A DNA stretch of 64,000 nt from the NCBI GenBank assembly GCA_027923965.1, contig AP026969.1, positions 1,426,001-1,490,000 on the forward strand. The letters are read 5' to 3'. Shown piece after piece: positions 4,032-49,885 of the stretch. The notes under the pieces were generated by a model. It saw only the letters and a list, made by a program, of their open reading frames with translations. It ran no database searches and was not told the origin of the DNA. Position 1 is the stretch's first letter. The number at the start of each line of letters is the position of its first letter. The position numbers and the translations under genes were made by a program. Source of the stretch: Comamonadaceae bacterium OS-1 (GTDB lineage: Bacteria > Pseudomonadota > Gammaproteobacteria > Burkholderiales > Burkholderiaceae_C).

Positions 4032-4970
4032 TCAGCCCGCGAGCGGAAACCCCGTATCAAACGTCTCCCGCACGTCCAGCCGCTGCTTGAGCAGCCCCGC
4101 CTCCAGGTAGAAGTCGGCCGTGCGCTGCTGGTCGGCCAGCACGGGGGCGTCGATGGGTTGCCAGCGGGTTTGGCGGCGCTCGAACTGCAGGCGGGCGGCA
4201 TCGGCGGGGATGCCGATGATGCGGGCCAGGCTGGCGCTGAATTCGGCCGGGTGCTGGGTGGCCCAGGTCTGGGCGCGCACCAGGCGTTGGTGGATGTCTT
4301 TCAGCGCAGCACGCTTGTCGCGCAAGGCGTTGTCGGTGGCGGCCAGGAAGCTCAGGCCCGTGGACAGGCCGCGCCCGTTCACCAGCACGCGCGCGTGGCC
4401 GCCGGTTTCGGCCAGCGCGGTGTAGGGCTCCCAGGTGGCCCAGGCATCGACCGAGCCCTGGGTCAGGGCCAACTTGGCATCCGGCGGGGCCAGAAAGCGC
4501 AGGTTGATGTCGTCGGGCTTCAGGCCTACCGAAGCCAGCGCTTTGAGGGTGACGAAGTGGCCGATGGAGCCGCGGTTGGTGGCCACGCTTTTGCCTTTGA
4601 GGCTGCTGGCATCCTTGAGCGGCGAGTTGGGTGCAACCAACACCGCCGTGCCGTAGGCATCGGAGCGGTTGGCGGCAAAGGCCTTGACGCGGCTGCCTGC
4701 GGCCAGGGTGAACAGCAGGGGCGCGTCGCCGATGGGGCCGAAATCCACTGCGTCGGCGTTCAGTGCCTCGGCCAGCGGGGCGGCTGCCGGGAACTCGGTC
4801 CACTGGATGTCGTAGGGCAGGGTCTTGAGTTCGCCTGCGGCTTCCAGCAGGGCGCGCAGGCCGCCTTTTTGGTCACCCGCGCGCAGCAGCAGTTTGGTTT
4901 GGCTGTGGCCCAGCACGGGGGAGAGGAAGGCCGCAGCCGACAGGAATTGTTGGAAGGTACGTCTTTGCAT
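4032..4970 (-). CDS. ssuA: Aliphatic sulfonate ABC transporter substrate-binding protein SsuA
   Basis: This 312-residue periplasmic binding protein has an N-terminal signal peptide (MQRRTFQQFLSAAAFLSPVLGHSQ). Typical SsuA landmarks follow: LRAGDQKGGLRALLEAAG, GPIGDAPLLFTLAAGS, KGKSVATNRGSIGHF, DAWATWEPY and a C-terminal helix with DFYLEAGLL. It delivers sulfonates to an SsuBC-type importer. It is the third gene of a - strand unit after the SsuD-like monooxygenase and the SfnB-like enzyme; the gap from the latter is 16 bp. The unit ends at the terminator at 4001-4027. Confidence 0.9.
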   Translation of the reverse strand: MQRRTFQQFLSAAAFLSPVLGHSQTKLLLRAGDQKGGLRALLEAAGELKTLPYDIQWTEFPAAAPLAEALNADAVDFGPIGDAPLLFTLAAGSRVKAFAANRSDAYGTAVLVAPNSPLKDASSLKGKSVATNRGSIGHFVTLKALASVGLKPDDINLRFLAPPDAKLALTQGSVDAWATWEPYTALAETGGHARVLVNGRGLSTGLSFLAATDNALRDKRAALKDIHQRLVRAQTWATQHPAEFSASLARIIGIPADAARLQFERRQTRWQPIDAPVLADQQRTADFYLEAGLLKQRLDVRETFDTGFPLAG

Positions 4971-4986
4971 GGTGTGGTGGGGATAG

Positions 4987-6141
4987 TTAAGAAATCAGGA
5001 TTTGGCGGCCCGCCGCAATGCGGGCGCTGTCGTCTTGCGGCGTGTGGATGCGCCCGCACAGCACGTCGCGCAGGTGGCGCTGCAGCGGGTGGTGGCGTGA
5101 CAGGCCGTGGTTGCCGGCCAGCGACAGCGCGGCTTCCACCGCCTGCACGGCGTTGTTCGTCAGCAGGGATTTGAGGAGGCCGCTGTCGGTGGCGGATACC
5201 GGCACGCCGGTGTCCACGTCACGCGCCAGGCTGGCCAGCAGGCGCTCGTTGGCCAGCAGCAGGGCCTGGATGCCGCCCACGGTTTCTTGCGCGCGGGGCA
5301 GGGTGGCCAGCGCGGCCCCCAGGTTGGCGGGTGTGCGCTGGCGCAAGAAGTCCACCGTCCAGTCGCGGGCGGCGCGGGCCACGCCGGTGTACAGCGCGCC
5401 CAGCAGCACGGCCATGTCGGCCTGCAAACCGGCATCTACACCGCCCCATGCCTGGGGTTCGCGCAGGTCGATGGCGTTGTCCAGATCGACCAGTACGTCG
5501 TCAAACACCACGTCGTGGCTGCCGCTGGCGCGCAGGCCCAGGTGGTCCCAGGTGTCCACGATGTGGGTGCCGGGCAGACCGGCGGGCACCAGCAGCGTGC
5601 CCACGCGTGGCGCTGCCTCGTCGGTGCGCACCCACACCGCGTACCAGCGCAGGATGGGCGCGCCGGTGGAATACAGCTTGTGGCCCGATACGCGCCAGCC
5701 GGCGGCGGTCCAGCGCGCCGTGGTGCTGGGCAGGCCACCCCGGGCGGGCGACCCCAGCTCGGGCTCGACGCGCAGGGCGTTGATCAGCGACACGCTGGCC
5801 ACCGACTCGCGCACTAGGCGCTCGGCCAGATGCTGCGGCCAGGTTCGGCCTGCCTTGCCGGTCTGGCCCATGCTGCGGTGCTGGATGTACTGCATCACCA
5901 GCACCAGGGCGGTGGCCGGGCAGCCGTAGCCCACCGCGCCAATCACTTCGCCCAGTTGCGCCAGCGTGGCCCCCTGGCCACCCAGGGTACGCGGTGCGGC
6001 CAGGGCCAGCAGACCGGCCTGTTGGAGTTCGGCGAAGTTGTCAAACGGAAAGCTGGCATCGCGGTCGTGGGCATCGGCGCGGGCCGCAAACTCCACGGCC
6101 AGGGTGCGGGCCAGCTGGCCGGGGTTGAGCGAGGCATTCAT
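4987..6141 (-). CDS. Acyl-CoA dehydrogenase-fold flavoprotein, SfnB/DszC-like sulfur acquisition enzyme
   Basis: This 384-residue protein has the acyl-CoA dehydrogenase fold: an N-terminal helical domain (RDASFPFDNFAELQQAGLLAL), a middle domain ending with WDHLGLRASGSHDVVFDDV, and a C-terminal four-helix bundle (NHGLSRHHPLQRHLRDVLCG). The SfnB/DszC group within this fold are reduced-flavin monooxygenases or desulfurisation enzymes rather than true dehydrogenases. Its place between an SsuD-like monooxygenase (11 bp upstream) and ssuA supports a sulfur-scavenging role. The frame is open further upstream, but homology begins at the ATG at 6141 and the monooxygenase gene occupies that upstream DNA. 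Confidence 0.8.
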   Translation of the reverse strand: MNASLNPGQLARTLAVEFAARADAHDRDASFPFDNFAELQQAGLLALAAPRTLGGQGATLAQLGEVIGAVGYGCPATALVLVMQYIQHRSMGQTGKAGRTWPQHLAERLVRESVASVSLINALRVEPELGSPARGGLPSTTARWTAAGWRVSGHKLYSTGAPILRWYAVWVRTDEAAPRVGTLLVPAGLPGTHIVDTWDHLGLRASGSHDVVFDDVLVDLDNAIDLREPQAWGGVDAGLQADMAVLLGALYTGVARAARDWTVDFLRQRTPANLGAALATLPRAQETVGGIQALLLANERLLASLARDVDTGVPVSATDSGLLKSLLTNNAVQAVEAALSLAGNHGLSRHHPLQRHLRDVLCGRIHTPQDDSARIAAGRQILIS

Positions 6142-18706: not shown

Positions 18707-20704
18707 ATGGAAATCACAGTTTTCGGCCCGGCTTGCAGCCAATGCCGCAGCACCATCGCGATGATTGGGCAGGTGGCCCAGGAACTGGGTGTGCCTGTGG
18801 AGATCGCCACGGTGGAGGACCCCCGCGCGATCTTGCGCGCCGGGGTTACCGCCACACCGGCGGTTGCCATGGGCGGTAGGGTGCTGCACGGTGGGGGGCT
18901 GCCTTCGCATGAAGAGGTGCGGGGCTGGCTTGCGCCGATGCTGCGGCCCATGGCGTTTTTGAGCCAGGCCACGCGCTATCTGTTCTTTACCGGCAAGGGC
19001 GGTGTCGGCAAGACCTCGCTGTCCACCGCGGCTGCGCTGACCTTGGCCGACGCGGGCCGGCGGGTGCTGCTGGTCAGCACCGATACGGCGTCCAACCTGG
19101 ACGAGATGCTGGGCGTGGCCTTGCGCAATGTGCCCACGGCCGTGCCCGGTGCCCCGGGCCTGTCGGTGCTGAACATCGACCCCGGCACGGCAGCCGAGTC
19201 CTACCGGCAGCGGGTGCTGGCCCAGATGGGCGCGGGTGCCAGCCCCGCCGAGCTAGCTACCGTGCGCGAGCAGTTGTCGGGTGCCTGCACCACCGAAATC
19301 GCCTCGTTCGACGAGTTCGCCACGCTGCTGTCGGAGCGCGATGCGCGGTTCGACCATGTGGTGTTCGACACGGCCCCCACCGGCCACACCTTGCGGCTGC
19401 TGAGCCTGCCCAAGGCCTGGAGCGGGTTTTTGGAGGGTAACGACCGTGGCGCTTCGTGCCTGGGCCCGCATTCAGGTTTGAAGATGCAGGAGGCGCGGTT
19501 CAAGGCGGCGCTGGCGGCCCTGAGCGATCCGGCCCAGACCACCGTGGTGCTGGTCACCCGCCCGGACAAGGGGGCCCTGGCCGAGGCCGCCCGCAGCGCC
19601 GAAGAGCTCAAGGGGCTGGGCCTGCACCACCAGCGCCTGGCGATCAACGGCGTGTTCCATGCCAGCGACCGCGCCGATACCGTGGCGGCTGCCATCGAGA
19701 CGCTGGGGCAACAGGCCCTGGCCGAGATGCCCGCATCCTTGCGGGCCTTGCCGCAAGACACGGTGCCGCTGCGCGCCTTTGACACCGTGGGCCTGCCCGC
19801 TTTGCGGGCACTGCTGTCGCCCCACCAGGCGGCTGTGGCCGCTGCGCCGCCGGTAACCGTGGAGCCGATCCCCGCGGGCCAGGACCTGGCGGCGCTGGCC
19901 GACGCGCTGGCGGCGGTGGGCCGCGGCCTGGTCATGGTGATGGGCAAGGGCGGCGTGGGCAAGACCACCATTGCCGCGGCGCTGGCCCTGGGCCTGGTGC
20001 AGCGCGGCAAGACGGTGCACCTGAGCACCACCGACCCCGCCGCCCACCTGGCGGGCACGCTGGCGGGCGCACTGCCGGGTCTGCACGTGAGCCGCATTGA
20101 CCCCAAGGTGGAGACGCAGCGCTATACCGACAAGATCATGGCCGCCAAGTCGCCCGACCTGAGCGCGCAGGAACAGGCGCTGCTGCTGGAAGACCTGCGC
20201 TCGCCCTGTACCGAGGAAGTGGCCGTGTTCCACGCCTTCTCGCGCATCGTTGGCGAGGCGCGCAGCGCATTTGTGGTGCTGGACACGGCACCCACCGGGC
20301 ATTCCCTGCTGCTGATGGATGCCACCGGCGCGTACCACCGGCAGATGGTGCGGGAGTTCGAGGGCAAAAATGCGGGCCACGTGGTGACCCCGCTGATGCG
20401 GCTGCAAGACGCTGCCTACACCAAGATCATCCTGGTGACCCTGCCCGAAGTAACCCCGGTGTCGCAGGCCGCCGCCTTGCAAGACGACCTGCGCCGGGCC
20501 CACATCGAACCCTATGCCTGGGTGCTGAACAAAAGCGTTCTGGCTGCGGGCACCCATGACCCCCTGCTGGCGGCACGGCTGGCAGGCGAGCGCAAGCAGA
20601 TGGAACGCATGGCCGCAGGGCTGGCCCCGCGCAGCTTCGTGGTGCCTTGGCTGACCCAGCCGCCCATAGGCATCGCGGAGCTGGCGAAGATGGTGCGCCA
20701 TTGA
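18707..20704 (+). CDS. arsA: Thioredoxin-like domain fused to ArsA arsenical/metalloid pump ATPase
   Basis: This 665-residue protein has a small thioredoxin-fold domain (1-80) with C10-SQ-C13 and a cis-Pro-type TATPAV motif. A complete tandem ArsA follows: P-loop 1 at 95-104 (TGKGGVGKTS), P-loop 2 at 413-421 (GKGGVGKTT) and two DTAPTGH signature motifs. The three metalloid-binding Cys of ArsA are kept: C194 in GACTTEIASFDEF, C251 in SCLGP and C501 in SPCTEE. ArsA normally powers ArsB efflux of As(III)/Sb(III). No arsB, arsC, arsD or arsR is nearby. The N-terminal redox domain could take the place of ArsD as metalloid carrier (inference). Confidence 0.9.
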   Translation: MEITVFGPACSQCRSTIAMIGQVAQELGVPVEIATVEDPRAILRAGVTATPAVAMGGRVLHGGGLPSHEEVRGWLAPMLRPMAFLSQATRYLFFTGKGGVGKTSLSTAAALTLADAGRRVLLVSTDTASNLDEMLGVALRNVPTAVPGAPGLSVLNIDPGTAAESYRQRVLAQMGAGASPAELATVREQLSGACTTEIASFDEFATLLSERDARFDHVVFDTAPTGHTLRLLSLPKAWSGFLEGNDRGASCLGPHSGLKMQEARFKAALAALSDPAQTTVVLVTRPDKGALAEAARSAEELKGLGLHHQRLAINGVFHASDRADTVAAAIETLGQQALAEMPASLRALPQDTVPLRAFDTVGLPALRALLSPHQAAVAAAPPVTVEPIPAGQDLAALADALAAVGRGLVMVMGKGGVGKTTIAAALALGLVQRGKTVHLSTTDPAAHLAGTLAGALPGLHVSRIDPKVETQRYTDKIMAAKSPDLSAQEQALLLEDLRSPCTEEVAVFHAFSRIVGEARSAFVVLDTAPTGHSLLLMDATGAYHRQMVREFEGKNAGHVVTPLMRLQDAAYTKIILVTLPEVTPVSQAAALQDDLRRAHIEPYAWVLNKSVLAAGTHDPLLAARLAGERKQMERMAAGLAPRSFVVPWLTQPPIGIAELAKMVRH

Positions 20705-26585: not shown

Positions 26586-27584
26586 ATGTCCTCGACTACC
26601 TCCTCGACTACCTCCTCGGTATATGCCGACAACTCCTTGTCGATTGGCCGCACGCCGCTGGTGCGCTTGAACCGCATCACCGACGGTGCCGCAGCCACCG
26701 TGCTGGCCAAGATCGAAGGGCGCAACCCGGCGTATTCGGTGAAATGCCGCATCGGCGCAGCGCTGATCTGGGACGCGGAAAAGCGCGGCCTGCTGGGGCC
26801 GGGCAAGGAAATCATCGAGCCCACCAGGGGCAACACCGGCATTGCGCTGGCCTTTGTGGCTGCCTCCAAGGGCATCCCCATCACCCTGACCATGCCCGAG
26901 ACCATGAGCATCGAGCGGCGCAAGATCCTGCTGGCCTACGGTGCCCGGCTGGTCCTCACCGAAGGGGCCAAGGGCATGAAAGGGGCCATCGCCAAGGCCG
27001 AGGAAATCGCGGCCAGCGACCCCAAGTACGTGCTGCTGCAGCAGTTCAAGAACCCGGCCAACCCGGCCATCCACGCCACCACCACCGGCCCGGAAATCTG
27101 GCAGGACACCGATGGCCAGATCGACATCCTGGTCTCCGGTGTGGGCACCGGCGGCACCATCACCGGGGTGTCGCGCTACATCAAGCACATCCAGGGCAAA
27201 GCCATTGTTTCGGTGGCGGTGGAGCCCACGGCCAGCCCGGTGCTGACGCAAAAGCGCGCGGGCGAAGAAATCAAACCCGGGCCGCACAAGATCCAGGGCA
27301 TAGGCGCAGGTTTTGTGCCCGATGTGCTGGATTTGTCGCTGGTGGATGCCATCGAGCAAGTCACTAACGAGGAGGCCGTGGACTACGCCCGCCGCCTGGC
27401 GCGCGACGAGGGCATTCTGGCGGGCATCTCCTGCGGCGCGGCGGTGGCGGCGGCGGTGCGCTGGGCGAAAAAGCCCGAGAGCGCGGGCAAGACGATTGTG
27501 GTCATCCTGCCGGATTCGGGCGAACGCTACCTGAGCTCGGTGCTGTTCGAAGGTGTGTTCGATGCCGCAGGTGTTGCGACCTGA
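26586..27584 (+). CDS. cysK: Cysteine synthase A (O-acetylserine sulfhydrylase)
   Basis: This 332-residue PLP enzyme has [11 protein letters not shown] (PLP Lys), [36 protein letters not shown] and [11 protein letters not shown]. It joins O-acetylserine, made by the serine acetyltransferase at 31.2 kb, with sulfide. Two oddities: the substrate loop reads PTRGNTG rather than the usual PTSGNTG, and the N-terminus [11 protein letters not shown] is encoded by a 12-bp tandem duplication at 26589-26612. The gene follows the tauD relic by 11 bp. Confidence 0.9.
26589..26612 (+). repeat. 12-bp tandem repeat in the cysK 5' end
   Basis: TCCTCGACTACC occurs twice in a row, with a third half copy, directly after the cysK ATG. 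It adds the [10 protein letters not shown] tail in front of the conserved enzyme. Confidence 0.85.
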
Positions 27585-27827: not shown

Positions 27828-28934
<1,107 letters not shown>

Positions 28935-28992
28935 CCCCAGTCAGTTGCAAGCGGTGCGCGGCTGTTCCGCGTGGACATTCAGGAGACAAAAA

Positions 28993-29562
28993 ATGACACT
29001 CTTAGCATTGCACCCGGCCATTGGCCAAAGCAAACAGCCCGGCGCACCGGGTTTTAGCGGCGGTACGCTGACCTGCCACTGCAGCCACGACCCGGTGGTG
29101 GTGCGGGTGGATTCACAGGTAGCGCACAACCATGCCTGTGGCTGCAGCAAGTGCTGGAAGCCCGCGAACGCGCTGTTTTCGATTGTGGGCGTGGTCCCGT
29201 GCGACAAAGTGCACGTTACATCGCGCCCGGAGAAGCTGCACATCGTGGATGCGAGTGCCACCATCCAGCGCCATGCCTGCAAGGCCTGTGGCGTGCATCT
29301 GTTTGGCCGCATCGAGAACAAGGACCATGCGTTTTACGGGCTGGATTTCATCCACACCGAGCTGTCCAAAGAGTCTGGGTGGACCGGGCCGGAATTTGCG
29401 GCCTTTGTGTCGTCCATCATCGAAACCGGCACGCCGCCCGAGCAGATGGCCGACATCCGCAAAGAGCTGCACAGCGTGGGGCTGGAAACCTACGACTGCC
29501 TGTCGCCCACCTTGATGGATGTGCTGGCCACCCAGGTGGCCAAGTTGCGCAAAGCCGCTTAA
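28993..29562 (+). CDS. gfa: S-(hydroxymethyl)glutathione synthase (Gfa)
   Basis: This 189-residue zinc enzyme has Cys clusters [20 protein letters not shown] and [10 protein letters not shown] that form the two zinc sites of glutathione-dependent formaldehyde-activating enzyme. It accelerates formation of S-hydroxymethylglutathione, the substrate of FrmA. It starts 58 bp after frmA with a strong AGGAG site and forms a detoxification operon with it. The length fits the family. Confidence 0.95.
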
Positions 29563-29568
29563 AAAGCT

Positions 29569-30564
29569 TCAGGGCCGGGCCCCGCCAAAGCGCTCGCGGT
29601 AGGCCTGCGGCCCCACGCCCAGGCGCTTGAGGAACAGCTTGCGCAGCGGCTGCTCGGACGCAAAGCCCACGCGCCCGGCAATCGATTTGAGCGGCAGGTC
29701 GCCTTCTTCCAGCAGGCGGCGGCCCGCTTCCAGCCGGGCCGATTCGATGAACTGCAGCGGGCTGCTGCCCACCTCTTTGGCAAACACGCGGCGAAAGTTG
29801 CGCTCGCTCATGGCGGCGCGGTCGGCCAGCAGGGCCACGTCCAGCGGCAGCGACAGGTTGGACAGCACCCAGTCCTGGATGGCGCGGATGCCGGGGTGGC
29901 TGGTGTTCTGGCTGGTCAGGTGCACGCTGAACTGCGATTGCCCTCCCGGGCGTTTGAGGTACACCACCAGGTCGCGCGCCACCTGCAGCGCCAGGCCGCG
30001 GCCAAAGTCTTCTTCCACCAGGGCCAGCGCCAGGTCGATCCCGGCGGTGACCCCGGCCGATGTCCACAACCGGCCCGAGCGCAAATAGATCGCGTCGGCC
30101 TGCACCTGCACCTTGGGAAACTTCTCGCGCAGCAGGGCGGCCACGCTCCAGTGGGTGGTGGCGGGCAGGCCGTCCAGCACGCCCGCGGCCGCCAGAAAAA
30201 AGCTGCCCGAACACAGGGCCACCAGCCGTGTGATGCGCGGAGCCACGGCGGCCGCCCAGTCCACGATGGCCGGGTGGGCCGCCAGCGCCACCTCGATCTG
30301 CCGCGCGCCCACGATGATGGCCGTGTGCGGCAGGTCGTCTGGCTGCAAGGCCTGCGCCTGCAGCAGCATGTGGGTGTCGGAAGCCACTGGACCCGCCGCG
30401 TCGGACACGATGTGCACCGCGTAGCCCGTGGGGCGGCCCTCCTGCACCAGGTGCAGGTTTGCGTACTCGAACACGCTCATCGCGCCTATGGCCTCGATGG
30501 CCTTGAAGCCGGGGTAGACCACCATGTCCACGCGGCGGGCGTGACGTTCGCTGTTTTTTTGCAT
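29569..30564 (-). CDS. GlxA-type transcriptional regulator (DJ-1/PfpI + AraC HTH)
   Basis: The 331-residue protein has an N-terminal DJ-1/PfpI-like domain (about 10-190) with nucleophile-elbow region ALCSGSFFLAAAGVLDG and THWSVAALLREKFP. A C-terminal AraC double HTH (about 225-320) follows: LLADRAAMSERNFRRVFAKE and GFASEQPLRKLFLKRLGVGP. This architecture senses small metabolites through the first domain. It ends 6 bp after convergent gfa and diverges from the encapsulin operon, so it is the most likely local regulator of that operon. Confidence 0.85.
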   Translation of the reverse strand: MQKNSERHARRVDMVVYPGFKAIEAIGAMSVFEYANLHLVQEGRPTGYAVHIVSDAAGPVASDTHMLLQAQALQPDDLPHTAIIVGARQIEVALAAHPAIVDWAAAVAPRITRLVALCSGSFFLAAAGVLDGLPATTHWSVAALLREKFPKVQVQADAIYLRSGRLWTSAGVTAGIDLALALVEEDFGRGLALQVARDLVVYLKRPGGQSQFSVHLTSQNTSHPGIRAIQDWVLSNLSLPLDVALLADRAAMSERNFRRVFAKEVGSSPLQFIESARLEAGRRLLEEGDLPLKSIAGRVGFASEQPLRKLFLKRLGVGPQAYRERFGGARP

Positions 30565-30613
30565 GCTGCATCCTACGGATGTTTTGGTTGTTTAGAACTG
30601 ATTTCTTAGTCGT

Positions 30614-30641
30614 TTGAGATTGGCAGCAGGGCTTCTACAGT
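30614..30641 (+). promoter_or_regulatory. Candidate promoter of the encapsulin operon
   Basis: TTGAGA, then a 16-bp spacer and TACAGT, in the 131-bp region between the GlxA-type regulator and the rhodanese gene. It is a moderate sigma-70 match, by eye only. Confidence 0.35.
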
Positions 30642-30695
30642 GGCTTTCAACAACCCCGCACGCTGGTGTGCCGGGTCTGAACCACAGGAGTTTGC

Positions 30696-31169
30696 ATGCC
30701 ATCCGACACCGCTGAACTGATCAGCCTGCCCCCCGAACTGGAGTCTGCCCGCGCGGTCGCCCTGTCTACCAATTTGCCCTATGCGGGCGGTGTCAGCCCG
30801 GCCGTGGCCTGGCGCTTGTTTGAAGCCGGTGCGGCCCAACTGGTGGATGTACGCACGGCGGAAGAGCGCAAGTTTGTTGGCCACGTGCCCGGCAGCGCCC
30901 ATGTGGCCTGGGCCACCGGTACCAGCCTGACGCGCAACCCGCGCTTCGCCCGTGAGCTGGAAGCCAAGGTCGGCAGCAAGGACGCGGTGGTCCTGCTGCT
31001 GTGCCGCAGCGGCAAGCGCTCGGCGCTTGCGGCCGAAGCCGCAGCCAAGGCGGGGCTGACGCGCGTGTTCAACGTGCTCGAAGGCTTTGAAGGCGAGATC
31101 GACGGCCAGCAGCACCGCGGTGGCGACGACGGCTGGCGCTTCCACAAGCTGCCGTGGGTGCAAGACTGA
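30696..31169 (+). CDS. Rhodanese sulfurtransferase of the encapsulin operon
   Basis: This 157-residue single-domain rhodanese has LVDVRTAEERKFVGHVPGSA and the active loop CRSGKRS with Cys103. It could supply or accept sulfane sulfur for the encapsulated desulfurase. The start has a good ACAGGAG site. Its TGA overlaps the next start as TGATG, so it is translationally coupled to the serine acetyltransferase gene. Rhodaneses are recurrent members of family 2A encapsulin operons. Confidence 0.9.
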   Translation: MPSDTAELISLPPELESARAVALSTNLPYAGGVSPAVAWRLFEAGAAQLVDVRTAEERKFVGHVPGSAHVAWATGTSLTRNPRFARELEAKVGSKDAVVLLLCRSGKRSALAAEAAAKAGLTRVFNVLEGFEGEIDGQQHRGGDDGWRFHKLPWVQD

Positions 31170-32092
31170 TGGCCGCGCCGGTTTTTGACATCGGCAAAGT
31201 CGTGCAGTCGCTGCACGGTGTGCGGGCCGAGTGGCGGGCCGCGCAAGGGCGCTCCAGCGAGCCGGGCGGGCGTGAATTTCCGTCGCGCAACGCGCTGGCG
31301 GGCATTGTCGAATCGCTCAAGGGCGTGCTGTTTCCCATGCGCCTAGGCCCGGTGGACCTGCGCCAGGAAAGCGAAGATTTCTACGTGGGCTACACCTTGG
31401 ACGCGGCCCTGCACGGCCTGCTGGCCCAGGTGCGGCTGGAGCTGCGCCTGGTGGAAGACGTGCCGGTGGGCACCCAGCCCACCCAGGTGGTGCAGCAGTT
31501 TGCCCAGGCCTTGCCCGGCATCCGCCGCCTGCTCGACAGCGATGTGCTGGCCGCCTTCCATGGCGACCCGGCGGCCCGCAGCGTGGACGAGGTGCTGCTG
31601 TGCTACCCCGGCATCCTGGCCATGCTGCACCACCGCCTGGCCCACCAGCTGTACCGCCAGGGCCTGCCGCTGCTGGCACGCATCGTGGCCGAGCTGGCGC
31701 ACAGCGCCACGGGTATCGACATCCACCCCGGTGCCAGCATCGGCCCGGGCTTCTTCATCGACCACGGCACCGGCGTGGTGATCGGCGAGACCGCGCGCAT
31801 CGGCCAGCGGGTGCGCATCTACCAAAACGTCACGCTGGGGGCCAAGCGCTTCAGCACCGATGCCCAGGGCCACCTGGAAAAAGGCCAGCCGCGCCACCCC
31901 ATCGTGGAAGACGACGTAGTGATCTACGCCGGGGCCACCGTGCTGGGCCGGGTGACGCTGGGGCAGGGCGCCAGCATTGGCGGCAATGTGTGGCTGACCC
32001 ACAGCGTGCCGCCTGGTGCCCACATCACCCAGGCCCGGGCAGAACAAGCCCAGGCACCCCACCAAGTTTCTCTTTCCCCTGTAACCACGTAA
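31169..32092 (+). CDS. epsC: Serine O-acetyltransferase (EpsC/CysE type)
   Basis: The 307-residue protein has an N-terminal helical domain (about 1-170) and a C-terminal left-handed beta helix of hexapeptide repeats: DIHPGASIGPGFFIDHG, TGVVIGETARIGQ and ASIGGNVWLTHSV. It makes O-acetylserine from serine and acetyl-CoA, the substrate that CysK turns into cysteine. It lies between the rhodanese and the encapsulin shell gene, as in other family 2A loci, where cysteine supply feeds the caged desulfurase. Confidence 0.92.
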   Translation: MAAPVFDIGKVVQSLHGVRAEWRAAQGRSSEPGGREFPSRNALAGIVESLKGVLFPMRLGPVDLRQESEDFYVGYTLDAALHGLLAQVRLELRLVEDVPVGTQPTQVVQQFAQALPGIRRLLDSDVLAAFHGDPAARSVDEVLLCYPGILAMLHHRLAHQLYRQGLPLLARIVAELAHSATGIDIHPGASIGPGFFIDHGTGVVIGETARIGQRVRIYQNVTLGAKRFSTDAQGHLEKGQPRHPIVEDDVVIYAGATVLGRVTLGQGASIGGNVWLTHSVPPGAHITQARAEQAQAPHQVSLSPVTT

Positions 32093-32105
32093 ACGGAGTT
32101 TTTCT

Positions 32106-33026
32106 TTGAGCAATATCACCACCCTCGGCGACAGCGCCGCACGCCAATTAGCCAACGCGACCAAGACCGCGCCCCAGCTGGAAACCATTTCGCCCCGTTG
32201 GCTCACGCATTTGCTGCAGTGGGTGCCGGTGGAGGCGGGCATCTACCGCCTGAACAAGGTGAAGAACCCCGAGTCCATCAAGGTCACCTGCACCGCCCGC
32301 CAGACCGAAAACCAGTTGCCCCGCACCTTTGTGGACTATGAAGAGCAGCCCCGCGAATACTTCCTGAACGCGGTCAGCACCATCCTGGATGTGCACACCC
32401 GCATTTCCGACCTCTACAGCAGCCCGCACGACCAGATCAAGGAGCAACTGCGCCTGACCATCGAGACCATCAAGGAGAACCAGGAAAGCGAGCTGATCAA
32501 CAACCCCGACTACGGCCTGCTGTCGCAGGTGACCGATGCCCAGCGTATCTTCCCGCTGACCGGCGCGCCCACGCCCGACGACTTGGACGAGCTGCTGACC
32601 AAGGTCTGGAAAGAGCCCGCCTTCTTCCTGGCGCACCCGCTGGCCATTGCCGCCTTTGGCCGCGAAGCCACCCGCCGCGGCACGCCACCGCCCACCGTGA
32701 GCCTGTTTGGCTCGCAGTTCATCACCTGGCGCGGTGTGCCGCTGATCCCTTCGGACAAAGTGCCGGTGGCCGATGGCAAGAGCAAGATCTTGCTGCTGCG
32801 TGTGGGCGACAAGCGCCAGGGCGTGGTGGGCCTGTTTCAGCCCGGCCTGCCCGGCGAGCAAGCGCCCGGCCTGTCGGTGCGTTTCATGGCCATCAACGAC
32901 CAGGCGATTGCCTCCTACCTGATCTCGCTGTACTGCTCGCTGGCCGTGCTGACCACCGACGCGCTGGCCGTGCTGGACGACGTGGAAATCGGCAAGTACC
33001 ACGACTACGCCGACACCTACAAGTAA
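32106..33026 (+). CDS. srpI: Family 2A encapsulin nanocompartment shell protein (SrpI)
   Basis: This 306-residue HK97-fold shell protein is of the SrpI type: RQLANATKTAPQLETISPRW, LLQWVPVEAGIYRLNKVK, QPREYFLNAVSTILDVHTR, GLFGSQFITWRG-like VSLFGSQFITWRGVPLIPSD, and a C-terminus DDVEIGKYHDYADTYK. Family 2A shells assemble into about 25-nm icosahedral cages that package a cysteine desulfurase and store sulfur. The start is TTG at 32106 with CGGAG upstream, which fits the known MSNITTLGD-like N-terminus. The cargo gene begins 3 bp after the stop. Confidence 0.93.
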   Translation: MSNITTLGDSAARQLANATKTAPQLETISPRWLTHLLQWVPVEAGIYRLNKVKNPESIKVTCTARQTENQLPRTFVDYEEQPREYFLNAVSTILDVHTRISDLYSSPHDQIKEQLRLTIETIKENQESELINNPDYGLLSQVTDAQRIFPLTGAPTPDDLDELLTKVWKEPAFFLAHPLAIAAFGREATRRGTPPPTVSLFGSQFITWRGVPLIPSDKVPVADGKSKILLLRVGDKRQGVVGLFQPGLPGEQAPGLSVRFMAINDQAIASYLISLYCSLAVLTTDALAVLDDVEIGKYHDYADTYK

Positions 33027-33029
33027 GCC

Positions 33030-34901
33030 ATGTTCAACATCCCACAACCCAACTTGCCAGCGGGCCTGCCCGATCCGGCGGCGTTGGCGGCCATGGCCAG
33101 TGCGCTGTTCCAGGCCCTGCCCGGACAGGCCGCGCCGGGGGCCCAGTTCCCGGCCAACATCGCGCCACCGGGCTCGCCGCTGTCCAGCCCCGCGGGCTTG
33201 GGCCCCAGCGTGCCGGGTACGCCGATTCCGCAGGGGCAAATCCCCGGCACGAATCTGCTGCCGTCGTCCCCCAGCCAGGTGCTGAACCTGGGCAACCGCG
33301 CCCCGGCGCTGCTGCCCGAGGCCCAGGCGGGCAATGGCGTGCCCGACAAGTTGCTCAGCGCCGTCCCGGGCTACGACCCACGCGTGGGCGGTGTGCTGCA
33401 AGGCGTACCCGAAGCCGCCGGTGCGGGTTCGCCGTTCTACTTTGTGGCGGAAAAGCGGGGGCCGCCTCAGGGCGCACCTTCCAGCCTGGATGCCCTGAGC
33501 AGCCAGCCGTTCCAGCCATCCGCGGTGCCCACGGCCAGCGCCCCGAAGGCCCCACCCGTGCCGCAAAGCACGCCCGCGTTCTACTTTGTGGATGCGGTCA
33601 CGCTGCCCAACGGCTACGTCACGCCCGCCACCCCAGGCGCGCGCGAGGTACCGGCTTACCAGGGCTCGGCCCACCCCGCGTTCGACGTGCACGCCGTGCG
33701 CCGTGACTTCCCCATCTTGCAGGAGCGGGTCAAAGGCAAGCAGCTGGTGTGGTTCGACAACGCCGCCACCACGCACAAGCCCCAGTCGGTGATCGACCGC
33801 ATTGCCTACTTTTACGCGCACGAGAACTCCAACATCCACCGCGCCGCCCATGACCTGGCCGCCCGCGCCACCGACGCCTACGAAGGTGCTCGGGAGCGGG
33901 TGAAAAAGTTCATCAACGCGCCGGACGTGAACGAGGTGATCTTTGTGCGCGGCACCACCGAAGCTATCAACCTGGTGGCCAAGAGCTGGGGCGGCCAGCA
34001 CGTGGGCGAGGGCGACGAGATCATCGTCTCCCACCTGGAGCACCACGCCAACATCGTGCCCTGGCAGCAGCTGGCGGCTGCCAAAGGCGCGAAGCTGCGC
34101 GTGATCCCGGTGGACGACAGTGGCCAGGTGCTGCTGGACGAGTACCGCAAGCTGCTCAACGACCGGACCAAGATCGTGGCTGTGACGCAGGTCTCCAACG
34201 CCCTGGGCACCGTGGTGCCGGTGAAGGAGATTGTGGAACTGGCCCACCGTGCCGGTGCCAAGGCGCTGGTCGATGGCGCGCAGTCCATCTCGCACATGCG
34301 GGTGGACGTGCAAGACATCGGGGCCGACTTCTTCGTCTTTTCGGGACACAAGGTCTTTGGCCCCACCGGCATCGGCGTGGTCTGGGGCAAGCGCGAGGTG
34401 CTGGAAGACATGCCTCCGTGGCAAGGCGGCGGCAACATGATTGCCGACGTGACGTTCGAGAAAACCGTGTTCCAGCCCATCCCGAACAAGTTCGAGGCGG
34501 GCACCGGCAACATCGCCGACGCGGTAGGCCTGGGCGCGGCCATCGACTACGTGAACAAGGTGGGCATTGAGAACATCGCCCGCTACGAGCACGAGCTGGT
34601 GGCCTACGGCATGCAGGCGCTTGGAGCCATCCCCGGCGTGCGCCTGATCGGCACCGCCAACGACAAGGCCAGCGTCATGTCTTTCGTGCTGGCTGGCTAC
34701 AGCACCGAAGAGGTTGGCAAGGCGCTGAACGAGGAGGGCATTGCCGTGCGCACCGGCCACCACTGTGCCCAGCCCATCCTGCGCCGCATGGGCGTGGAAA
34801 CCACGGTGCGCCCCTCGCTGGCGTTCTACAACACCTTTGCCGAGATCGATCTGATGGTGGCGGTGGTGAAGCGATTGGCTTCGGCACGACGCAACGGGTA
34901 G
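33030..34901 (+). CDS. Family 2A encapsulin cargo: cysteine desulfurase with cargo-loading domain
   Basis: The 623-residue protein has a long disordered Pro/Ala/Gly-rich N-terminus (about 1-215) with two related motifs, SPFYFVA at 135-140 and PAFYFVD at 182-188. The SufS-type class II desulfurase follows: FDNAATTHKPQSVIDR, SHLEHHANIVPWQ, PLP Lys441 in FSGHKVFGPTG and active Cys579 in RTGHHCAQPILRRMG. It removes sulfur from cysteine as persulfide. The extra N-terminus is what targets the enzyme into the SrpI shell. It is last in the four-gene operon and is followed by a repeat terminator. Confidence 0.93.
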   Translation: MFNIPQPNLPAGLPDPAALAAMASALFQALPGQAAPGAQFPANIAPPGSPLSSPAGLGPSVPGTPIPQGQIPGTNLLPSSPSQVLNLGNRAPALLPEAQAGNGVPDKLLSAVPGYDPRVGGVLQGVPEAAGAGSPFYFVAEKRGPPQGAPSSLDALSSQPFQPSAVPTASAPKAPPVPQSTPAFYFVDAVTLPNGYVTPATPGAREVPAYQGSAHPAFDVHAVRRDFPILQERVKGKQLVWFDNAATTHKPQSVIDRIAYFYAHENSNIHRAAHDLAARATDAYEGARERVKKFINAPDVNEVIFVRGTTEAINLVAKSWGGQHVGEGDEIIVSHLEHHANIVPWQQLAAAKGAKLRVIPVDDSGQVLLDEYRKLLNDRTKIVAVTQVSNALGTVVPVKEIVELAHRAGAKALVDGAQSISHMRVDVQDIGADFFVFSGHKVFGPTGIGVVWGKREVLEDMPPWQGGGNMIADVTFEKTVFQPIPNKFEAGTGNIADAVGLGAAIDYVNKVGIENIARYEHELVAYGMQALGAIPGVRLIGTANDKASVMSFVLAGYSTEEVGKALNEEGIAVRTGHHCAQPILRRMGVETTVRPSLAFYNTFAEIDLMVAVVKRLASARRNG

Positions 34902-34962
34902 TGCTATGAAAATAAGAGCTTCTCATGCTGATGGAATAAGCATGGGAAGCTCTTTTTTATAG
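34901..34962 (+). repeat. Dispersed repeat A, terminator of the encapsulin operon
   Basis: AGAGCTTCTCATGCT-GATGGAAT-AAGCATGGGAAGCTCT is followed by TTTTTTAT. The outer and inner stems are both nearly perfect, so this copy is a strong intrinsic terminator. Confidence 0.9.
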
Positions 34963-35002
34963 AAGGAACGAAAACCCGGGGACCTGCGTCGGCAGGGCGT
35001 TC

Positions 35003-35371
35003 TCAGTGCTCCATCACGTCGAGCAGAGCCAGGCGCAGGGCATCGTCGGTGAAGGGTTTGGCCACAAAGCCGCGTGCACCGAGTTTCAGGGCGGCGATGG
35101 CGGTGGCCTTGTCGTTCAGCGCGCTGACCACCAGGATATTGGTGTGCGGCAGCAGGCGCAGCATTTCGCGGATGCACTCCATGCCGTTCATCTCGGGCAT
35201 GGTCAGGTCCATGGTGACCACGTCGGGCTGGGTGGCTTTGGCGATGCGCAGGGCCTCCACGCCATTGCGGGCCAGGCCAACGAGCGCGATCTTGCCCAGG
35301 CCACCGTCTTGCACGATCTTGCTGATGCGCGTGCGGATCATGTTGGAGTCGTCTACGACCAGAAGGCGCAT
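35003..35371 (-). CDS. CheY-like single-domain response regulator
   Basis: The 122-residue receiver domain has LLVVDDSNMIRTRI (acidic pair), DVVTMDLTMPEMNG (phospho-Asp), VVSALNDKA and FVAKPFTDD (Lys), all key residues present. It has no output domain. It starts 4 bp after the CheA-like kinase gene and is surely its partner. It probably acts by protein-protein contact, e.g. on a motor, pilus or other enzyme. Confidence 0.92.
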   Translation of the reverse strand: MRLLVVDDSNMIRTRISKIVQDGGLGKIALVGLARNGVEALRIAKATQPDVVTMDLTMPEMNGMECIREMLRLLPHTNILVVSALNDKATAIAALKLGARGFVAKPFTDDALRLALLDVMEH

Positions 35372-49260: not shown

Positions 49261-49336
49261 GCGGGAGTAGCTCAGTTGGTAGAGCGCAACCTTGCCAAGG
49301 TTGAGGTCGAGAGTTCGAGACTCTTCTCCCGCTCCA
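49261..49336 (+). tRNA. tRNA-Gly (GCC), copy 1
   Basis: A complete 76-nt cloverleaf with encoded CCA; acceptor GCGGGAG/CTCCCGC, anticodon loop TTGCCAA gives GCC. It is identical to the copy at 49534-49609. Confidence 0.97.
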
Positions 49337-49346
49337 AATTGGTAAA

Positions 49347-49374
49347 AAGGGAAGCTTCAGGCTTCCCTTTTTTA
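49347..49374 (+). terminator. Intrinsic terminator after tRNA-Gly 1
   Basis: AAGGGAAGC-TTCAG-GCTTCCCTT followed by TTTT. Confidence 0.8.
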
Positions 49375-49393
49375 TGATGAGTGTAGTGAGTGC

Positions 49394-49467
49394 GGCGCGA
49401 TAACAAAGCGGTTATGTACCGGATTGCAAATCCGGCTAGCCCGGTTCGACTCCGGGTCGCGCCTCCA
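49394..49467 (+). tRNA. tRNA-Cys (GCA)
   Basis: A 74-nt cloverleaf with CCA; acceptor GGCGCGA/TCGCGCC, anticodon loop TTGCAAA gives GCA. It is flanked by two identical tRNA-Gly genes. Confidence 0.97.
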
Positions 49468-49533
49468 GAATTCAAAATTCGGCGAAAACCGGATTTTGCA
49501 TAAAAAGCCATGCTAGAATACAAGGCTTGAAAC

Positions 49534-49609
49534 GCGGGAGTAGCTCAGTTGGTAGAGCGCAACCTTGCCAAGGTTGAGGTCGAGAGTTCGAGACTCTTCT
49601 CCCGCTCCA
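49534..49609 (+). tRNA. tRNA-Gly (GCC), copy 2
   Basis: Base-for-base identical to copy 1. The 25 bp in front and the terminator behind are also similar, so the whole transcription unit was duplicated. Confidence 0.97.
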
Positions 49610-49620
49610 AATTTGGAAAA

Positions 49621-49647
49621 AAAGGAAGCTTAGGCTTCCTTTTTTTA
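49621..49647 (+). terminator. Intrinsic terminator after tRNA-Gly 2
   Basis: AAAGGAAGC-TTAG-GCTTCCT followed by TTTTTT; it parallels the terminator at 49347. Confidence 0.8.
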
Positions 49648-49800
49648 TGCCCGTTTGTTTTTGCGTTTTACGGCTGTTTGCACCGGGCTTCCAGAGCCAA
49701 AACCATACTCCCTGCGGGGTACAATGCGGCTGCTTTTCAGCTCTGGTGCAATGAAACACGAGACCCATCCCCGGGTCCCGGCCCCAAGGTGGATACAGCA

Positions 49801-49885
49801 GGCTCGGTGGTGTAATTGGTAGCCACAGCAGACTTAAAATCTGCCGACGCAAGTCGTACCGGTTCGATTCCGGTCCGAGCCACCA
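49801..49885 (+). tRNA. tRNA-Leu (TAA)
   Basis: An 85-nt class II tRNA with a long variable arm and encoded CCA; acceptor GGCTCGG/CCGAGCC, anticodon loop CTTAAAA gives TAA. Confidence 0.95.

Follow-up and report, generated by a model that had tools for sequence, protein, structure and literature searches.

A family 2A encapsulin operon in Comamonadaceae bacterium OS-1 and a predicted controller switch in its relatives

The window analysed here, a stretch of 64,000 nucleotides from Comamonadaceae bacterium OS-1 (contig AP026969.1, positions 1,426,001 to 1,490,000), contains at positions 30696–34901 four plus-strand genes for a rhodanese-like protein, a serine O-acetyltransferase, an encapsulin shell protein and a cysteine desulfurase. 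A preliminary description made from the sequence alone had named them a complete family 2A encapsulin operon, and all four open reading frames (ORFs) were found in the order and with the spacing it gave (a 1-bp overlap, 13 bp and 3 bp). They form an ordinary encapsulin operon of family 2A (SrpI-type), a known system that had been correctly recognised; what is new is a regulatory gene and a DNA element that were found in its relatives, the window being the version without them. The family description lists 1281 family 2A desulfurase operons, in which the accessory genes enriched most are those for serine acetyltransferases and rhodaneses (PMC8346489).

The four genes and their products

The first gene (30696..31169, plus strand) encodes a rhodanese-like protein of 157 amino acid residues (PF00581, 55.5 bits), in which we take CRSGKR with Cys103 to be the rhodanese loop. 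The acetyltransferase gene (31169..32092, plus strand) begins with an ATG that overlaps the rhodanese stop codon. Its product of 307 residues affiliates with the EpsC type (NF041874, 164.6 bits, above the curated cut-off of 150) and scored 172.9 bits against TIGR01172, under the cut-off of 210.65; an alternative GTG start at 31154 would lengthen it to 312 residues.

The arrangement was compared with the best 80 of 571 relatives, which are loci from Variovorax, Duganella, Acidovorax, Rhodoferax and other Burkholderiales with shells 89–99% identical to that of the window, and which are not independent of each other. The order rhodanese, acetyltransferase, shell and desulfurase on one strand recurs in 75 of them (74 with a length filter, the difference being a short acetyltransferase match in L024), and the four-gene arrangement is therefore more than chance. 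Four of the other five loci reach a contig end, and the fifth (L074) has no acetyltransferase match. At this last locus, from Herminiimonas contaminans, genes for the rhodanese, an XRE protein (see below), the shell and the desulfurase were matched, with no acetyltransferase match beside the shell gene. In 77 of the 80 loci the operon has a matching rhodanese gene next to it; the remaining three reach a contig end.

The third gene (32106..33026, plus strand, with a TTG start behind GGAG) encodes the shell protein of 306 residues. Its earlier placement in the SrpI-type family 2A agrees with the match to NF041162 (528.6 bits, cut-off 380) and to PF19307, its one Pfam domain. The E-loop holds no domain for binding cyclic nucleotide monophosphates (cNMP), which is the distinction between families 2A and 2B; the 2B model was also passed (416.3 bits, cut-off 400), with a best stretch covering only model positions 216–449. 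The best PDB chain was 8t6r (549.4 bits over residues 6–306), followed by 6x8m, the SrpI of Synechococcus elongatus, and by analogy with the close relative 8t6r the protein would self-assemble into an icosahedral shell. A single match was found in the genome, which is one contig of 5.12 Mb. The distribution is patchy, a shell having been found in 12 of the 60 relatives searched, the window's own genome included; of 299 genomes from across the phylum, 10 exceed the cut-off of the cargo model. At one related locus (L176, genome G308, 4148–5052) the shell gene appeared as two overlapping matched pieces, probably a broken gene or a sequencing error.

The HK97-type fold of the shell (PMC8346489) would be in keeping with a domesticated or prophage capsid protein without a tie to sulfur metabolism. 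Two records named Acinetobacter phage, the only records of that kind among the matches, hold a shell 81% identical to that of the window, and PHROGs gave marginal matches (best E 0.0013 for a family of unknown function, E 0.014 for a head protein). The search for a placement of 32106–33026 among phage capsids, suggested beforehand as a possible refutation, returned nothing beyond these and none that clearly places the protein in a phage head family. In one of the two records (L134, CAKLQH020000001.1) the shell match belongs to an Acinetobacter-type copy of the operon that is surrounded by metabolic bacterial genes (LysR, glutathione S-transferase and amino-acid transport genes), and the record is therefore likely a mislabelled bacterial contig. 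None of the 18 window proteins scanned matched a phage family. With the family 2A equivalog match, the dedicated cargo gene next to the shell, the marginal PHROGs matches and the bacterial genes of L134, the capsid reading was rejected as extremely improbable.

The fourth gene (33030..34901, plus strand) encodes a cysteine desulfurase of 623 residues. It scored 940.2 bits against the family 2A cargo model NF041166 (cut-off 800), in agreement with the dedicated cargo proposed before, and the match is nearly full-length with the N-terminal extension included (residues 9–616 on model positions 14–623 of 623). The motif SGHK presumably holds the lysine that binds pyridoxal phosphate (Lys441), and RTGHHC the catalytic Cys579. 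Among the best 120 of the 7999 relatives listed, the closest cargo proteins with a source name come from Rhodoferax and are annotated as family 2A cargo desulfurases. The bacterium itself is probably a near relative of Rhodoferax. The long disordered N-terminus was recovered as well: it spans ~216–223 residues, the match to the sufS core starting at residue 222. The first 223 residues consist to 60.1% of P, A, G, S and Q vs 31.5% in the core, and their confidence by the predicted local distance difference test (pLDDT) is low, with block means of 22–39 in a low-confidence model.

In S. elongatus a disordered N-terminus loads the cargo CyD into the shell, and two motifs are described there (PMC8049743). 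The counterpart of the published motif 1, LARLANEFFS, is LAAMASALF in the window (residues 19–27; 33084..33110, plus strand), modelled with low confidence as part of a helix of residues 16–28. Motif 2 was read twice on the plus strand, as SPFYFV (33429..33446) and as PAFYFVDA (33573..33596). The motif is also doubled in 116 of the 119 relatives that could be parsed (120 were taken, one lacking a recognisable core) and in the cargo of Acinetobacter, whereas the S. elongatus cargo has one, FYFI; with the pattern used, the motif was not found in the cargos of Azospirillum and Aliarcobacter. A third segment, a Pro/Gly-rich block of residues 45–105 (33162..33344, plus strand), is strongly conserved among the 21 of these 120 relatives used for the alignment of the N-terminus. 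Such conservation is unusual for a disordered region, and the block is shared with Variovorax PBL-E5. As a general targeting signal it was dropped because it is unrecognisable in five distant cargos.

A controller gene and a 21-bp element in related operons

Between the acetyltransferase and shell genes, 70 of the 80 related loci carry a fifth gene that is absent from the window and typically encodes an XRE protein of ~89 residues with an HTH_3 domain (for example L027:7639–7905 and L171:4798–5064; 77 loci are listed in all). The four core genes of the earlier account stand, and its term "complete" was too strong. The gap between the two genes, 13 bp in the window, is below 150 bp in 10 of the 78 relatives with both, 150–299 bp in 4, 300–399 bp in 51 and at least 400 bp in 13. 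Most long-gap loci encode the small protein, whose HTH_3 domain was confirmed in the two proteins tested. In 54 of the 68 loci with both genes, a start codon of its frame shares 4 bp with the end of the acetyltransferase gene at the stop.

The structure model of the XRE protein is confident (mean pLDDT 96.6). Its best matches in a profile search of the PDB were C.AhdI and C.BclI, controllers of restriction-modification systems; in a fold comparison ClgR and such controllers came out on top, ClgR chains equalling or outranking C.AhdI and C.BclI. Controller proteins of restriction-modification systems act at a small palindromic site beside a promoter, and the XRE system of the relatives resembles them in this respect. 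In contrast to C.AhdI and C.BclI, the XRE gene sits between metabolic genes (no search for restriction-modification genes was made) and the C-terminal helix of its product (residues 63–88) is longer. The literature searched, which covered few subscription papers and no supplements and is therefore no proof that the controller is undescribed, gave no report linking an encapsulin to an XRE protein and a cysteine desulfurase, or to a controller protein.

Besides the gene, a 21-bp element with a palindromic core, TTGRYGGCTATAGCMTGTTGA, precedes the shell gene in 69 of the 80 loci, the same loci from which its consensus was built (49 exact, 16 with one, 3 with two and 1 with three mismatches). Gene and element co-occur in 69 loci, the gene stands alone in one, neither is present in ten and the element is nowhere alone. 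In 63 of the 69 loci the element lies 85–120 bp before the shell gene, and in most loci it shares bases with the XRE gene at its 3' end. A survey of 83 loci (some of the 94 looked at being the same record in duplicate) contained 19 in which the XRE reading frame stops elsewhere and the element persists all the same, which is why we read it as a DNA signal. In 12 of these 19 the stop falls into the element's first four bases, and in 7 it is found at other places. The conserved tail "...AIAC" of the XRE protein had been considered as a cysteine sensor and was dropped, since the same DNA is kept in those 19 loci; its Cys may have a role where it is encoded.

Behind the element, a -10-like nAnACT stands 16–18 bp from a TTGA-type -35 in 67 of the 69 loci (observed at 17 or 18 bp), vs a rate of 0.9% when the 60 bases after the element were shuffled and searched at the same distances with this pattern, which had been picked after viewing the loci. 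When 200 genomes from the window's family, some of whose species may be among the 80 loci, were searched for the element at up to two mismatches, 31 matches in 30 genomes were obtained vs one for the reversed control pattern. In 25 of the 30 matches inspected the element adjoins the XRE gene and the shell gene. The other five (L143, L148, L149, L150 and L153) all have two mismatches, and all 18 matches with none or one adjoin a shell gene. Shell presence was determined for part of the 200 genomes, and at least two, G317 and G326, combine a shell with no match to the element.

In loci with the XRE gene, a variant of the site, GGCTATCGCC, is common ahead of the rhodanese gene. Among 68 carriers it was found with at most one mismatch in 42 and with at most two in 56 (13.9 expected from simple shuffles); the corresponding counts in nine loci without the gene were 1 and 5 (1.8 expected), three loci without a rhodanese match being excluded. 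A strict joint loss of this site and the XRE gene was rejected: the two go together only in part.

Absence of the switch from the window

The window has no XRE gene and no TTGRYGGCTATAGCMTGTTGA before the shell gene. Acetyltransferase and shell genes are separated by 13 bp (32093..32105, plus strand) at the place where most close relatives have the XRE gene and the operator and promoter. In the window's own genome no match to the element was found at up to two mismatches, and no close relative of the XRE protein, the best match being 45% identical over residues 5–70; the best site before the rhodanese gene has three mismatches. The nearest relative, G301, with a shell 99% identical, also lacks gene and element. 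Three further members of the genus have both, namely G300, G304 and G302, the last with an exact element and with the same neighbours as the window (cysK-adhC-gfa-ftrA and rhodanese-acetyltransferase). Because of these same-genus genomes we infer that the XRE gene and the shell promoter were deleted in the lineage of the window and G301.

The opposite history, in which the ancestor of the window's group had no XRE gene and other lineages gained it, would fit the ten relatives with neither gene nor element, among them metagenome-assembled genomes from lakes, L034 (Rhodoferax), L020 (Duganella), L077 (Ottowia) and L081 (Variovorax). The more distant operons G170, G326 and G336 of the same order (shell 74% identical) fit it too: acetyltransferase, shell and desulfurase were matched there, and the scan gave no XRE match and no element. 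A gain is nonetheless rather improbable in view of the same-genus genomes with both, one of them with the window's own neighbours, and of the XRE gene occupying the same place in other genera. In the loci of S. elongatus, Methylosinus, Azospirillum, Aliarcobacter and Acinetobacter, the palindrome of the element was not found in the 250 bp ahead of the shell gene. Since it is absent from these five and from G170, G326 and G336, the switch is the feature of a clade and is not universal in family 2A.

Upstream of the rhodanese gene the window contains the promoter-like pattern TTGAGA-16-TACAGT (30614..30641, plus strand), the only one found in 30500–35100 vs 0.3 expected. G301 has the same hexamers and spacing (TTGAGA-N16-TACAGT) with other spacer letters. 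With the controller gene and the internal shell promoter presumably deleted, this one promoter probably drives all four genes. Behind the desulfurase gene a 13-bp stem with one G-T pair, an 11-nt loop and six T form a probable intrinsic terminator (34916..34958, plus strand), read from the sequence and not listed by a hairpin scanner restricted to loops of 3–8 nt.

For the relatives, a large clade of Burkholderiales, we propose that the XRE protein binds the core GGCTATAGCC, which abuts the -35 of an internal promoter, and there helps RNA polymerase to use a poor -10 (GACACT), turning on shell and cargo, and that at the variant GGCTATCGCC it would limit the transcription of its own operon. The window lineage would have lost the switch gene and the shell promoter and retained a rhodanese promoter without a recognisable site, leaving one promoter that is uncontrolled or differently controlled. 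We regard the chances for and against this scheme as evenly balanced; the XRE protein could also be a repressor rather than an activator.

Cysteine supply and proposed function

The preliminary description had the operon make its own cysteine. Its product is better stated as O-acetylserine, which the acetyltransferase would form. The nearest cysteine synthase found is encoded by cysK (26586..27584, plus strand; TIGR01139, 451.8 bits), 3.1 kb upstream and beyond adhC, gfa and a divergent regulator gene; two further relatives of it in the genome are 54% and 45% identical. Orthologues of this cysK (86–88% identical) directly precede the acetyltransferase gene in five of the 80 loci (L010, L021, L040, L059 and L063), as cysK does in S. 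elongatus, and it is therefore a good but unproven candidate partner of the operon.

The divergent neighbour (29569..30564, minus strand) encodes an FtrA-like DJ-1/AraC regulator (216.5 bits, under the FtrA cut-off of 425). As a regulator of the operon it was rejected: of the genomes compared, G301 and G302 alone have it as a neighbour, and the 80 loci gave two remote matches (35–37%), neither of them adjacent. It probably lies outside the encapsulin system. Between cysK and this gene, 27846–29562 encode S-(hydroxymethyl)glutathione dehydrogenase and synthase (formaldehyde detoxification), in an order kept in G302. Farther away, 18707–20704 encode a protein of 665 residues with matches to an N-terminal thioredoxin-like domain and an ArsA-type ATPase (PF13192, PF02374), and 49261–49885 hold four clustered tRNA genes (Gly-Cys-Gly-Leu).

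Two known systems resemble the operon. The shell of SrpI/CyD from S. elongatus pANL (6x8m, PMC8049743) is 72.9% identical over 96% to that of the window, its cargo has a long low-complexity N-terminus, and acetyltransferase and rhodanese genes lie alongside; unlike in the window, the order is cysK-epsC-srpI-cyd-rhodanese, with cysK first and the rhodanese last. The Acinetobacter system (8t6r, Benisch et al. 2024; L134) shares the gene order of the window and has a shell 81% identical. It differs in a gap of 255 bp before the shell gene, with no plus-strand ORF of at least 35 residues in the region scanned, and in the overlap of its shell and cargo genes. From the close Burkholderiales operons the window differs in having neither XRE gene nor element.

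Taken together, a family 2A operon with a caged desulfurase, a cysteine synthase outside it and a single promoter left after deletion of the controller is, in our judgement, a highly probable explanation of the window. The shell protein would self-assemble and package the SufS-type desulfurase via its disordered N-terminus; within the shell the enzyme would take sulfur from cysteine, and the sulfur could be held there. The acetyltransferase would raise the supply of O-acetylserine for a cysteine synthase encoded elsewhere, the upstream cysK being the best candidate, and the rhodanese would probably pass sulfur on to acceptors. Three points weigh against this explanation. None of the four genes encodes a cysteine synthase. 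The structure model of the desulfurase is weak (mean pLDDT 45.2, from an alignment of 21 close relatives). According to PMC8049743, cargo loading failed in S. elongatus with a fragment that carried only the counterpart of motif 2. Storage of sulfur by the window's shell would follow by analogy from a 2024 study whose title reportedly states that such a compartment stores elemental sulfur.

The shell might instead channel sulfur, the persulfide of the caged desulfurase reaching only the operon's rhodanese at the shell and thereby feeding selected pathways, an idea proposed in PMC8346489. The rhodanese genes beside most of the related operons are in keeping with it, whereas the reported title runs against it, as do three order- or family-level relatives (L177–L179, shell 74% identical), where the stretch read contained nothing that matched the window's rhodanese. 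We consider channelling possible and the less probable of the two, storage being the function retained in our explanation.

To our knowledge, little is known about how the building of sulfur compartments is regulated beyond the sulfur-starvation response of S. elongatus. The window itself adds one member to the 1281 operons described in PMC8346489, and it is the regulation that could matter. A dedicated controller, together with a 21-bp site that within a bacterial family mostly marks encapsulin operons, offers a testable handle on it, and the window and its same-genus relatives form a natural pair, the former lacking the switch and the latter having it.

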